Shown: one piece after another, positions 8,776-41,895 of the stretch
Position numbering within the stretch: position 1 is the first letter of the stretch
Layout: each line of letters opens with the position of its first letter
From: Nocardia flavorosea
GTDB lineage: Bacteria; Actinomycetota; Actinomycetes; Mycobacteriales; Mycobacteriaceae
Direction: 5' to 3'
DNA: 64,000 bases
Assembly (NCBI RefSeq): GCF_015477805.1
Contig: NZ_JADLQL010000001.1
Coordinates: forward strand, 744,001 to 808,000
Translations under genes and position numbers: made by a program
The notes under the pieces: model-generated
Told to the model about the DNA's origin: nothing
What the model saw: the letters and a program-made list of their open reading frames with translations, nothing else
Databases searched by the model: none

Positions 8776-8820
8776 GGCTCCCTGGTAGAGCGGGCCGACC
8801 GTACGGCCGGCGCTGGACCC

Positions 8821-9016
8821 TCCCCCTCTGTCGCGGCGCCTGAGAGCTTCGGCAACCGGCCGGGGACCGGGCGCCTTTCACCATGGGCGGGTGGCCCGCA
8901 GCCACCTCTTTCCAGAGGCGCCGGTTCCCGCACGGTCCTGGTGCCTGAGAGATTGACGGGGAGGTGCTGCTCCTTCGGCGCCCGGCTCCATCGAGGATCC
9001 GGGGCTCTCCCGCACG
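8821..9016 (-). promoter_or_regulatory. Tandem glycine riboswitch upstream of gcvP
   Basis: Two glycine aptamers in a row on the minus strand. The first runs from about 9016 (GCGGGAGAGCCCC) through GCCGAAGGAGCAGC to CTCTCAGGCACC near 8940. The second runs from about 8932 through TTGCCGAAGCTCTCAGGCGCC to GACAGAGGGGGA at 8821. The paired CTCTCAGGC motifs and the terminal GACAGAGG are the hallmark of this RNA class. A short imperfect stem near 8793-8811 lies between it and the gcvP start and could act as expression platform. By analogy it should turn on gcvP when glycine is abundant. Confidence 0.93.
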
Positions 9017-9122
9017 GCTACGGCGCCCGGCTATCTTATCCCGGTGGCCGGGCGGGACGAGAACTCACCCAGAATGTGTCCTTCGCCGCACCGGAATCCC
9101 GCGAACCGGGCACAGGGCTACG

Positions 9123-38388: not shown

Positions 38389-40149
38389 TCACCCGCGAGC
38401 GGCCGTCCCGGCGGCCCGCACCACGGCTGCCACCGCGGCCGCGTCCACCGAATCGGCGCGGGCACACGACCATCCGATCCGGCCGGCACGCCGATACTCC
38501 AGGTAGGCGATCGCCTGTCCGGCGACAGGGTGGCCGGACAGGCCGAGCACCTCGATCACGCGGCCCACCTGCCCGAGTGCCGAGACCACCGCGGATACCG
38601 GGCTGCGCTCCGCATGGGTACTCCGGTGCGGCCGGCCGTCGACCACGAGCCCCACGCTGATCACCGGGAACTCCTCCGAGCTGACGACACGCAGGTCTTT
38701 CAACTCTACGTCGGGCGGTTCCGGCGTATCCAGATAGGCCGCGTCGAACAGGGCACGCAGTTCGGCTCCGGTGACCTCCGTCCCGGAACCGTCCGTATGC
38801 CGCTGCACCTGCCGGGCGAAGTCGATCTGCAACCGCCGGGGCAGGTCCAGACCGTATTCGGTGTCGAGCAGGTAGGCGATACCGCCCTTGCCCGACTGCG
38901 AATTCACCCGGACCACGGCGTCGTAACCGCGTCCGATATCGGCCGGATCGATCGGCAGGTACGGTACCCGCCATTCGATCTCGTGTTCGGGTCGGTTCGT
39001 GCGCGCGGCCCGTTCCCGATGCTCGGCGAATCCCTTCTTGATGGCGTCCTGGTGGGTGCCGGAGAACGCCGTGTGCACCAGATCCCCGACATAGGGATGC
39101 CGTGGATGGACGGGCAGACGGGTGCAGTATTCGACGGTGCGCCGGATCTCGTCGACATCGGAGAAATCGATCATCGGGTCCACGCCCTGGGCATGCAGAT
39201 TCAGGGCGAGGGTGGCGATATCGACGTTGCCGGTGCGTTCGCCGTTGCCGAAGACACAGCCCTCCACCCGTTGTGCACCGGCCAGTACCGCCAGTTCGGC
39301 GCAGGCCACCCCGGTGCCGCGGTCGTTGTGCGGATGCACCGACAGCACGACGCTGTCGCGACGGGCCAGATTGCGGTGCATGTACTCGATCTGGTCGGCG
39401 TACACATTGGGAGTCGCGATCTCCACCGTGGCCGGCAGATTCAGGGTCACCGGGCGCTGCGGACTCGCCTGCCACAGCTCGGTGACACTGTCGCAGATGT
39501 CGAGGACGTAGCCGGGTTCGGTTTGGTTGAACACCTCCGGGGAGAACTGGAAACGCACCCGCGGCAGATCACCGGCGAGTTCGAGAACATCGCGCGCGCC
39601 GGCCAGGATCAGTTCGCGGACTTCGCGGGAATCTTTGCCCAGCACGGTATCCCGCCAAACCGGGGCGGTGGCGGTGTACAGGTGGATCACCACCTCGCCG
39701 GCCAGCCCGCGGACCGATTCCACCGTCCGGGCGATCAGGTCCCGCCGCGCGGGGGTGAACACCACGACCGTGACGTCCGGCGGGACGGTCCCGGTATCGG
39801 CCAGGACCCGTACGAAATCGAAATCGGCTTGCGAAGCCGACGGATAGCCGACCTCGATCTCCTTGTACCCCATGGCGACCAGCAGGGCGAAAAACCGCAG
39901 CTTGCGCTCGGGATCCATCGGTTCGGCCAGGGCCTGGTTGCCGTCGCGCAGGTCCACCGGGACCCACAGCGGGGCCTGCCGGATCCGGGCGCCCGGCCAG
40001 CGCCGCTCCTGCTCGGGAACCTGTACCCGATCGTGGATATCGCGATACCGGTGCGACGGCATCTGTGAGTGCCGCTGCCGGTACCAGTCCGGCGCGGCCT
40101 CGGGGAGCGCGCCGGCGGGTGTGTCGATGGTGGGGTATGTCGTGGTCAT
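38389..40149 (-). CDS. leuA: 2-isopropylmalate synthase
   Basis: First committed enzyme of leucine biosynthesis: acetyl-CoA plus 3-methyl-2-oxobutanoate gives 2-isopropylmalate. 586 residues, the long (LeuA2) type of actinobacteria. The TIM barrel has DLRDGNQALAEPMD near 67-80, VHPHNDRGTG with metal-binding His residues, and GNGERTGNVD. The C-terminal regulatory domain (about 470-586) binds leucine for feedback control. ATG 40149 matches relatives; the upstream region carries a leader peptide and attenuator. leuB and leuCD are not nearby. Convergent with the DinB gene, divergent from a GntR regulator. Confidence 0.96.
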   Translation of the reverse strand: MTTTYPTIDTPAGALPEAAPDWYRQRHSQMPSHRYRDIHDRVQVPEQERRWPGARIRQAPLWVPVDLRDGNQALAEPMDPERKLRFFALLVAMGYKEIEVGYPSASQADFDFVRVLADTGTVPPDVTVVVFTPARRDLIARTVESVRGLAGEVVIHLYTATAPVWRDTVLGKDSREVRELILAGARDVLELAGDLPRVRFQFSPEVFNQTEPGYVLDICDSVTELWQASPQRPVTLNLPATVEIATPNVYADQIEYMHRNLARRDSVVLSVHPHNDRGTGVACAELAVLAGAQRVEGCVFGNGERTGNVDIATLALNLHAQGVDPMIDFSDVDEIRRTVEYCTRLPVHPRHPYVGDLVHTAFSGTHQDAIKKGFAEHRERAARTNRPEHEIEWRVPYLPIDPADIGRGYDAVVRVNSQSGKGGIAYLLDTEYGLDLPRRLQIDFARQVQRHTDGSGTEVTGAELRALFDAAYLDTPEPPDVELKDLRVVSSEEFPVISVGLVVDGRPHRSTHAERSPVSAVVSALGQVGRVIEVLGLSGHPVAGQAIAYLEYRRAGRIGWSCARADSVDAAAVAAVVRAAGTAARG

Positions 40150-40197
40150 GGGGATTCGTCCCGAATCTTCCTGTTCGTTCGGCCGCACGGAAACGGT

Positions 40198-40255
40198 GAT
40201 CGGCCGACGACAAGACCCCACGGCGGGGCGGCCGATCGTTCAGGCCCCGCCGTGG
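40198..40255 (-). promoter_or_regulatory. leuA transcription attenuator
   Basis: On the leuA transcript a terminator stem CCACGGCGGGG/CCCCGCCGTGG (40245-40255 with 40218-40228) begins inside the 3' half of the leader peptide gene. A competing 9-bp stem GATCGGCCG/CGGCCGATC (40229-40237 with 40198-40206) uses its loop. A ribosome stalled on the leucine codons would cover the first terminator arm. The T-run after the stem is short (GGTCTTGT). Confidence 0.7.
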
Positions 40256-40281
40256 CGGCCGAGGAGAAGCTGCTGCGACAT
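40240..40281 (-). CDS. leuL: leuA leader peptide MSQQLLLGRHGGA
   Basis: A 13-codon frame with three consecutive leucine codons (CTT CTC CTC), starting with ATG 40281 and ending with TGA at 40240-40242. TACAGT (40289-40294) fits a -10 element seven bases before the ATG, so the peptide is probably read from a leaderless transcript; no ribosome site is present. The last codons form one arm of the terminator stem. This is the layout of leucine attenuators known from other actinobacteria and enteric bacteria. The peptide itself probably has no function beyond sensing charged tRNA-Leu. Confidence 0.75.
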   Translation of the reverse strand: MSQQLLLGRHGGA

Positions 40282-40325
40282 ATGGCAGACTGTACACAAC
40301 TCATCAGACAAGTAGCGAGGTTCGG

Positions 40326-40997
40326 ATGGTTACCCAGGTGCGACGCCACCCGTTGGCCGAGCAGGCAGCCGATCTACTACTGGCCCGCATCCGGGCCGGC
40401 GAATGGCCGCTCGGGCATAAGCTGCCGGGCGAGACGACGCTGGCCGCCCAGCTCGGCGTGGGACGCTCGACACTGCGCGAGGCCGTGCGCGTCCTGGCCG
40501 GTAAGGGCGTGCTCGCCAGCCGGCAAGGCGCGGGTGTCTTCGTCACGGCACTGGACATCCCTGAGGACTGGGATATCGTGCTGCGCCGGGCCACCATCGC
40601 CGCGGTCCTCGAAGCCCGGATCGCCATCGAGGCCGAGGCCGCCGCGCTGGCCGCCGCGCGGCGTACTCCGGCCGATCTGCGCGCCATCCGGCGGGCGCTG
40701 TCGGTACGGGCCACCGAGGGTGGCACGATCGCCGACCTCGTCGACGCCGATACGGCGTTCCATCGCGCCGTGATCGTGGCCGCGCACAACGACATCCTGA
40801 CCCAGCTCTTCGACACCTTCCTCCCCCGGTCCCGGGCCGCGATGATCGATATGCTGCAACTGCGCCCGATGCCCACCCCGGACGAGGACCACGCGGCGCA
40901 CGAACAGCTCGCCGAGGCGATCGCCGCGCGCGACTCCGCCGCGGCGGCCACCTACAGCCGCGCCCACCTCCACACCATCAAGGAAGCCTTCGCGTGA
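40326..40997 (+). CDS. GntR/FadR-family transcriptional regulator
   Basis: 223 residues. The winged helix is about 8-75 (LAEQAADLLLARIRAGEWPLG, read as two parts; TTLAAQLGVGRSTLREAVRVL) and the FCD ligand domain about 90-215, with DTAFHRAVIVAAHNDILTQLF and the helix carrying HEQLAEAIAARDSAAA; the FCD metal/carboxylate site residues appear present. ATG with GCGAGG upstream. It is divergent from leuA and shares its short promoter region, and lies before an ABC ATPase gene at a gap of about 100 bases. Whether it controls leuA or the ATPase is not visible; no palindrome is clear. Confidence 0.9.
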   Translation: MVTQVRRHPLAEQAADLLLARIRAGEWPLGHKLPGETTLAAQLGVGRSTLREAVRVLAGKGVLASRQGAGVFVTALDIPEDWDIVLRRATIAAVLEARIAIEAEAAALAAARRTPADLRAIRRALSVRATEGGTIADLVDADTAFHRAVIVAAHNDILTQLFDTFLPRSRAAMIDMLQLRPMPTPDEDHAAHEQLAEAIAARDSAAAATYSRAHLHTIKEAFA

Positions 40998-41094: not shown

Positions 41095-41895
41095 GTGAAC
41101 ACCACCGTTGTGGAGCTGACCGATGTCACCTTCCGGCGCGACGGCAATCCGATCATCGACGGCATCTCGCTGACCGTCCGCGCCGGCGAACACTGGGCAC
41201 TGCTCGGCCCGAACGGGGCAGGAAAGAGCACACTGCTCGGTTTCTGCGGCGCACTCACCCATCCCACCAGCGGGACGGTCCGCATCCTCGGGGAACAACT
41301 CGGGCGGGTGGAACTGCAGAAACTCCGGCGCTCCATCGGGCATGTGAATCCCCGTCATCCACTGCGGTCGCCACTGACGGTGCGGGAAGTCGCACTCACC
41401 GGGCTCACCGGCACGGTCGATTTCCCGATGCGCTGGACACCGCGCCCGGCGGATATCGATGCGGCGAACGATGCGCTCGAGGCGGTCGGCATGGCCGCCA
41501 AGGCCGGACGGACCTGGCCCACTCTCTCCCAGGGCGAGCGGGGACGCACGCTGATCGCCCGCGCGCTGATCACCGCCCCGCGGCTGCTACTGCTCGACGA
41601 ACCGACGACCGGCCTCGATGTGGCCGCGCGCGAACAACTGCTGCACACCATCGCCACCCTGGACCGGACATTGCCCGACCTCGCATCCGTGCTGGTGACC
41701 CATCACCTGGAGGAACTGCCGACGAGTACCTCCCATGCACTGCTGATCGCCGGGGGGCGGCCGGTCGCCACCGGCGCGGCGGACGAAACCATCACCACGG
41801 CAAACATTTCCGAGGCATTCGACCATCCAGTCCGCGTCGACCGCCGGGGCGGCCGCTGGTCCGCCCGATCCCCGGTGACCCAGCCGGTGGCATGA
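41095..41895 (+). CDS. ABC transporter ATP-binding protein without a neighbouring permease
   Basis: 266-residue ABC ATPase: Walker A GPNGAGKST (39-47), signature LSQGERGR (about 143-150; Gln-Gly-Glu instead of Gly-Gly-Gln), Walker B LLLLDEPTTGLD (about 162-173), and the switch histidine in VLVTHHLEEL. The group resembles soluble ATPases of the ModF/YlmA kind, which often occur alone. GTG start with GAAGGAAAAACACA upstream. No membrane partner or binding protein is in the window, so transport may not be its job. It follows the GntR gene and precedes a TetR gene on the same strand. Confidence 0.87.
   Translation: MNTTVVELTDVTFRRDGNPIIDGISLTVRAGEHWALLGPNGAGKSTLLGFCGALTHPTSGTVRILGEQLGRVELQKLRRSIGHVNPRHPLRSPLTVREVALTGLTGTVDFPMRWTPRPADIDAANDALEAVGMAAKAGRTWPTLSQGERGRTLIARALITAPRLLLLDEPTTGLDVAAREQLLHTIATLDRTLPDLASVLVTHHLEELPTSTSHALLIAGGRPVATGAADETITTANISEAFDHPVRVDRRGGRWSARSPVTQPVA

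Follow-up and report, generated by a model that had tools for sequence, protein, structure and literature searches.

A probably leaderless LEU-element leader and a probable GntR/FCD operator before a divergent leuA paralogue of Nocardia flavorosea

Background

In a 64-kb stretch of the genome of Nocardia flavorosea (6.39 Mb in 27 contigs), called the window throughout this text, a gene for a 2-isopropylmalate synthase is preceded by a short reading frame with a run of leucine codons, which raises the question of how such a frame might govern the gene behind it. The preliminary description of this DNA had placed a leucine leader peptide and an attenuator before leuA at 40198–40294, that is, from a -10-like hexamer through to the end of a second stem. 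In our analysis the leader, both RNA helices, the family membership, the codon bias, the promoter geometry and the co-migration of a palindrome with a gntR gene and an ABC gene were computed. As a whole, the locus is best explained, with a probability of roughly 60%, by a leaderless LEU-element leader with stalling-controlled translation of the synthase gene, to which a probable repression by a GntR/FCD protein is added.

Results

The gene behind the leader

38389–40149, minus strand: leuA2, divergent 2-isopropylmalate synthase paralogue, 586 amino acids

By sequence comparison, the gene in the window is not the canonical leuA but a divergent paralogue of it. Its product contains HMGL-like and IPMS_D2 domains and has its closest named relative in Nocardia carnea (87%). 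A canonical gene is found elsewhere in the same genome and is 53% identical to the window copy; the names leuA1 for the canonical gene and leuA2 for the window copy were coined in this analysis. When scored with the equivalog model TIGR00970 (leuA_yeast, cut-off 697.4), leuA1 passes with 961.1 bits and leuA2 fails with 629.7 bits, the latter passing the broader 2-isopropylmalate synthase subfamily NF002991. An extension of leuA2 to a GTG start at 40221, which would overlap the LEU element, was considered and rejected, because in most loci the homology of the relatives begins at residue 1–5 of the ATG form.

The leader frame and its start

40289–40294, minus strand: -10-like hexamer TACAGT, separated by 7 nt from the ATG of the leader, from sequence and promoter comparison
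40240–40281, minus strand: leader peptide frame MSQQLLLGRHGGA plus stop, 13 codons, ATG at 40281, probably leaderless
40261–40269, minus strand: Leu run CTT CTC CTC, the putative sensor codons, from the frame and the family codon bias

The frame MSQQLLLGRHGGA is the sole ATG-started frame of 8–25 codons with LLL on either strand of the window, and its stop codon TGA occupies 40242–40240 on the minus strand. The leader with three consecutive leucine codons that had been proposed at this place is confirmed at 40281–40240, and leader frames with a Leu run and an RHGGA-like tail are present in 100 of the 109 leuA2 loci with upstream DNA (one cut locus and one leuA1 locus excluded; some places occur twice, from two collections). 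The canonical leuA1 of the same genome carries the same leader.

Among the nine exceptions, the leader of locus L077 is intact and was missed by the search pattern. In L075 and L094 the leader ends right after the Leu run (MRSNEFLLL and MRSIEFLLL, each followed by the stop) and the RNA element is retained, suggesting that the leucine codons and the RNA, rather than the peptide tail, are the conserved part. In both of these loci the pseudoknot sequence (L075:2887–2973 and L094:2887–2973) persists past the early stop, a natural separation of the peptide tail from the RNA. In L096 the RNA is kept and the Leu run is broken, and the LEU element is gone from five of the 109 loci (L066, L090, L098, L112 and L113), in which the palindrome described below is kept.

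In 83 of 100 loci a hexamer of the form TANNNT precedes the start of the leader by 5–10 nt; in the remaining 17 it is absent within 18 nt upstream of that start, which counts against the leaderless reading. The palindrome core begins 29–39 nt before the leader start, with modes at 31 and 33. In four of the loci without the element (L066, L090, L112 and L113) the ATG of leuA2 itself lies 31 nt from the palindrome core and thus occupies the usual place of the leader ATG, so that leuA2 is probably leaderless in these loci as well. From the spacing of the -10 hexamer and from these natural alleles, leaderless translation of the leader appears well supported by comparison in the window, in agreement with the preliminary description. 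The latter had also regarded such a start as an unusual variant; this does not hold, since the leader peptide LeuL1 before leuA of Streptomyces lividans is reported to be leaderless (PMC8079986). In Corynebacterium diphtheriae, transcription is likewise reported to start at the beginning of the ilvB leader (PMC5784534).

The leader RNA is a LEU element with a conserved pseudoknot

40245–40255, minus strand: 5' arm of helix 1 (pseudoknot stem 1), within the leader frame; pairing in 96.4% of cells, two-sided changes in 3 of 11 pairs
40218–40228, minus strand: helix 1, 3' arm, from the covariation alignment
40231–40237, minus strand: 5' arm of helix 2 (pseudoknot stem 2), located in the helix 1 loop; pairing in 98.7% of cells, two-sided changes in 3 of 7 pairs
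40198–40204, minus strand: helix 2, 3' arm, from the covariation alignment
40198–40269, minus strand: full LEU element as matched by covariance model R1 (78.6 bits, with the window's own row in the training set)

The leader folds more stably than its dinucleotide shuffles (z -2.5), with 2 of 200 shuffles equally stable. For the alignment, which runs from the Leu run onward, 77 of the 91 non-identical elements were used and 14 similar ones were left out. It contains two interlocking helices, the loop of helix 1 pairing further downstream, which corresponds to an H-type pseudoknot. Over both helices 97.3% of the cells are paired, compared with 95.4% in shuffles and 36–59% in slid structures. Changes on both sides affect 6 of the 18 pairs and 28 cells as against 5.1 in shuffles, and 28 was reached in none of 500 shuffles, the rows being related sequences and helix 1 overlapping coding sequence. 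That helix 1 is kept as RNA is suggested by the two loci in which the frame stops before it. The covariation that the preliminary description had proposed to look for upstream of leuA in relatives is therefore present in both helices, and the second stem, said to use the loop of the first, proved to be the pseudoknot partner (40237–40231 with 40204–40198), itself covarying.

The covariance model R1 was built from leuA2 leaders only. In the genome of the window it also picks up the leader of leuA1 (76.9 bits), and each of 118 genomes examined (that of the window and 117 relatives) contains at least one match at E<=0.01, most genomes of the genus having two or more. In Rfam no family matched the leader, either at the gathering score in the window or at E<=1 in 211 nt, and an assignment to a described riboswitch or leader family of that database was rejected. 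Elsewhere in the window, the minus strand has tandem glycine riboswitch aptamers at 8818–9022, which score 64.1 and 41.3 bits. By its sequence features the leader RNA is the LEU element, a known actinobacterial leucine leader, here placed before leuA2: the frame with a Leu run, the pseudoknot and, in Nocardia and the mixed other genera, the leucine codons facing a Shine-Dalgarno box, all without a terminator, are the features published for it (PMC1262725).

The missing terminator bears directly on classical transcription attenuation, in which the role of intrinsic terminator would fall to helix 1 and that of antiterminator to the alternative stem. Such a reading accommodates a strong G+C-rich stem over the leader stop codon and a leucine leader in front of a leucine gene. 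However, only 0–4 T per 8 nt follow helix 1 in all 77 aligned sequences, and a terminator scan found nothing at helix 1 on the minus strand. Moreover, helix 2 is compatible with helix 1 and both covary, although an antiterminator should exclude helix 1. Of the preliminary proposal, the stem overlapping the leader frame thus stands (40255–40245 with 40228–40218, beginning inside the frame), but its identity as an intrinsic terminator was rejected for want of a T-run. Classical attenuation is unsupported because the intrinsic terminator is absent, and we consider it unlikely.

Leucine codons and the ribosome-binding region of leuA2

40167–40172, minus strand: candidate Shine-Dalgarno sequence of leuA2, AGGAAG, 17 nt before the ATG, which is unusually far

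A small inverted repeat GATTCG-GGA-CGAATC, which not all close relatives retain, lies between this candidate and the leuA2 ATG at 40153–40167 and might shorten the effective spacing.

In the leaders of 91 loci the leucine codons are CTT in 143 of 321 cases and CTG in 36 of 321; the leuA2 genes there have 55 CTT and 2586 CTG among 4324 leucine codons. One tRNA reads both CUU and CUC, and the two codons are complementary to AAG and GAG, as found in Shine-Dalgarno boxes. The Leu runs pair with their own ribosome-binding regions at -6.63 kcal/mol as against -5.87 kcal/mol for permuted partners, the best of 20 permutations giving -6.08. Permutations within groups, with the pseudoknot left out of the folding, matched this pairing in 2 of 200 cases for Nocardia, in 2 of 200 for mixed other genera and in 167 of 200 for Mycolicibacterium, and the stem between leucine codons and Shine-Dalgarno sequence is accordingly unsupported in the Mycolicibacterium loci. 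The predicted unpaired fraction of the Shine-Dalgarno sequence, likewise computed without the pseudoknot, is 0.31 in the free RNA, 0.45 when a ribosome covers the leucine codons and 0.32 when it sits on the stop codon. These values come from 98 of 101 loci, among them leuA1, and the Wilcoxon p values are about 2e-7 and 5e-7, for rows that are related. The Shine-Dalgarno sequences for this comparison were picked automatically and are doubtful in some rows including that of the window, for which AGGAAG was redone by hand. There the unpaired fraction is 0.30 free, 0.45 stalled and 0.28 at the stop, a small shift, and the best duplex of the window's own Leu run is formed elsewhere than at AGGAAG.

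The likeliest mechanism, on the basis of these models, is that a stall on the leucine codons frees the ribosome-binding site of leuA2, a suggestion supported across the family and weakly in the window. It rests more on the family than on the window because the shift in the window is small and AGGAAG is 17 nt away from the start codon. Transcription would begin at the leader ATG or within about two bases of it, and the 13-codon peptide would be translated from a leaderless message. With ample charged leucine tRNA the ribosome would pass the leucine codons and depart at the stop codon; helix 1 would then be closed by its 5' arm, the pseudoknot would form, and the ribosome-binding region of leuA2 would be sequestered, in part by pairing with the leucine codons. 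When leucyl-tRNA for the CUU and CUC codons is scarce, the ribosome would stall on the Leu run and cover both the 5' arm and the leucine codons, and the open ribosome-binding region would allow leuA2 to be translated. Ribosome stalling, the direction of the response, the opening of the Shine-Dalgarno sequence in vivo and the binding and repression by the GntR protein are what we infer from the computed features. Mutations in S. coelicolor, as cited in PMC1262725, stand against translational control.

Translation of the leader might alternatively gate Rho-dependent termination by masking or uncovering a Rho entry site, one possibility raised for actinobacterial cys leaders in PMC1262725. This would leave unexplained the conservation of both helices, as well as the bias towards CTT and CTC and the pairing with the ribosome-binding region, and we regard it as improbable.

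Equally improbable in our opinion is a pseudoknot bound by a regulatory protein, with orthologues of M. leprae ML1624 as the candidate and the leader peptide as a secondary feature. Protein binding to the LEU-element pseudoknot was proposed and argued for in 2005 (PMC1262725), and the persistence of the RNA in the two loci with an early leader stop is in line with it. In these same loci (L075 and L094), however, the Leu run is intact as the last translated part, the choice of leucine codons is extreme, and the leader frame with its Leu run is kept in the large majority of the loci (100 of 109), all of which speaks against a secondary role of the peptide.

The palindrome and the divergent gntR gene

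40299–40321, no strand assigned: hyperconserved palindromic site of 23 bp, consensus ACYYCTCTACTTGTCTGAGGAGT, candidate GntR operator, from promoter and genome comparison
40326–40997, plus strand: divergent GntR-family regulator gene, GntR helix-turn-helix and FCD ligand domain matched
41095–41895, plus strand: orphan ABC ATPase gene downstream of gntR, with homologues elsewhere that have their own copy of the palindrome

In the window the palindromic site lies across the -35/spacer region of the promoter of leuA2, and 4 nt separate its end from the start codon of gntR. Many columns of the 23-bp site are nearly invariant in 91 sequences, these being the ones within 3 substitutions of the palindrome motif among 95 non-identical promoters, and in some loci a clear inverted repeat is seen, ACTCCTCA and TGAGGAGT being separated by 7 nt. 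A GntR homologue is present in 104 of the 109 loci and absent from the DNA fetched for L032, L076, L079, L100 and L107; in the case of L100 this DNA lacks the palindrome too and retains the LEU element. In Amycolatopsis orientalis (L076:1871–2800) a LysR regulator is divergent from leuA2 in place of GntR, and the palindrome is still there. Nine neighbouring frames beyond gntR were considered in eight loci as candidates for a conserved gene that might reveal the signal: five are without a Pfam match (some of them may be spurious) and the other four encode an ABC ATPase, a LysR regulator, an SBF transporter and a Trp-operon-associated membrane protein.

The genome of the window contains a single exact match to the palindrome, and a role as a genome-wide motif was rejected on that ground. 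A 14-base core of it occurs in 61 of 117 genomes, that of the window included, mostly at leuA2; the reversed pattern, used as a control, occurs in 3. Ten further sites were fetched, and seven of them stand directly before an ABC ATPase gene homologous (55–65%) to the one behind gntR in the window, its start codon being 29–31 nt from the palindrome core. In L143 and L146 the palindrome lies beside gntR in a stretch without leuA2, with the ABC gene behind gntR in L146, and in L147 it lies near a partial ABC gene only.

Since the site follows gntR and the ABC gene when they leave leuA2, it is best read as a candidate operator of the neighbouring GntR protein, and it is probably the operator of a small regulon in Nocardia. 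The GntR/FCD protein would then form an independent layer, probably repressing the leuA2 promoter through the palindrome over the -35/spacer region. A sigma-70 -35 box was also considered for the palindrome and rejected, because just 11–12 nt lie between TTGTCT and the -10 hexamer and because the palindrome moves with gntR and the ABC gene when they are apart from leuA2. The control scheme of the preliminary description thus holds for the leader peptide, the two interlocking stems and the leaderless start, fails for the terminator, and is incomplete, both the paralogue status of the gene and the probable second layer of GntR and palindrome having escaped it.

The view that the GntR/FCD repressor is the main control of leuA2 and the LEU element a relic of the leuA duplication would fit the near-invariance of the palindrome and its presence in the five loci without the element, but it is very improbable in the face of the covariation, the codon bias and the near-universal retention, which point to continuing selection, and of the element retained in L100.

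Loss of the allosteric domain in some LeuA2 proteins

The LeuA allosteric domain is matched with 106.6 bits in leuA1 and with 23.6 bits in the LeuA2 of the window, which is slightly below the cut-off (24.9). LeuA2 ends before this domain in 9 of the 16 Nocardia loci compared (L122, L123, L124, L125, L129, L130, L131, L134 and L135), a proportion that is no frequency, as the 16 loci were chosen mostly for short-looking LeuA2 matches; for L131 the absence of the domain was checked by Pfam. An R1 match lies beside leuA2 in all nine genomes with a short LeuA2. A tentative suggestion, to which we give somewhat less than even odds, is that these genes belong to an undescribed module with two switches, a GntR/FCD protein acting on a palindrome common to leuA2, gntR and the orphan ABC ATPase gene, and, on the message of leuA2, a leaderless leader of the LEU-element type, and that the leader RNA may have taken over leucine feedback from the protein where LeuA2 has lost its allosteric domain.

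Discussion

Ever since the mutations in S. coelicolor and the comparison of 2005, the mode of action of the LEU element has been an unsettled matter, and the pair of leuA1 and leuA2 offers two copies of one RNA type per cell. As natural alleles exist in which the leader is missing, is stopped after the Leu run or stands without GntR, each step of the proposed control is separable. In the palindrome the GntR protein would have a defined target, and an uncharacterised ABC ATPase would be linked through it to leucine metabolism. If the suggestion on the allosteric domain is true, it would mean that feedback is shifting from an enzyme to its message. An arrangement of leuA2, gntR and the ABC gene, or a leuA paralogue with a leader or GntR, did not turn up in searches of the open-access literature.

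Among known systems, we know of no LEU-type pseudoknot in the cysteine translation attenuators of M. smegmatis. As cited in PMC13236596, they are similar in that stalling in a leader frame unmasks a downstream Shine-Dalgarno sequence, and they differ in responding to another amino acid. The mycobacterial ilvB1 leader (PMC13236596) also has a leader frame with codons for branched-chain amino acids; in contrast to the element in the window, it has a Rho-independent terminator with a U-tract and works by transcription attenuation.

The Corynebacterium leuA leaders, in the parts of PMC4046766 and PMC5784534 that deal with them, share a Leu run before leuA, and the C. diphtheriae peptide MNRANLLLLRRGGSQA resembles LLL..RHGGA; a start site could not be assigned in C. 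diphtheriae, and these parts make no mention of a GntR layer. LeuL1 of S. lividans TK24, as described in PMC8079986, is likewise a short peptide with a Leu run before leuA, leaderless and without a typical Rho-independent terminator. The peptide is a different one, and its start was determined by RNA-seq, whereas that in the window is deduced from comparison.

The closest system is the LEU element (Seliverstov et al. 2005, PMC1262725), which comprises a leader with a Leu run, a two-helix pseudoknot and leucine codons partly complementary to the ribosome-binding region of leuA, with no terminator described there; R1, derived from leuA2 leaders, matches leuA1 leaders. The element studied here differs from the one portrayed there in its position, with the divergent paralogue leuA2 behind it and a palindrome and a divergently oriented gntR gene next to it, and in the weakness of the window's own stem between leucine codons and Shine-Dalgarno sequence. 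The RNA type is already known as the LEU element, and the two-layer module around leuA2 is apparently undescribed.
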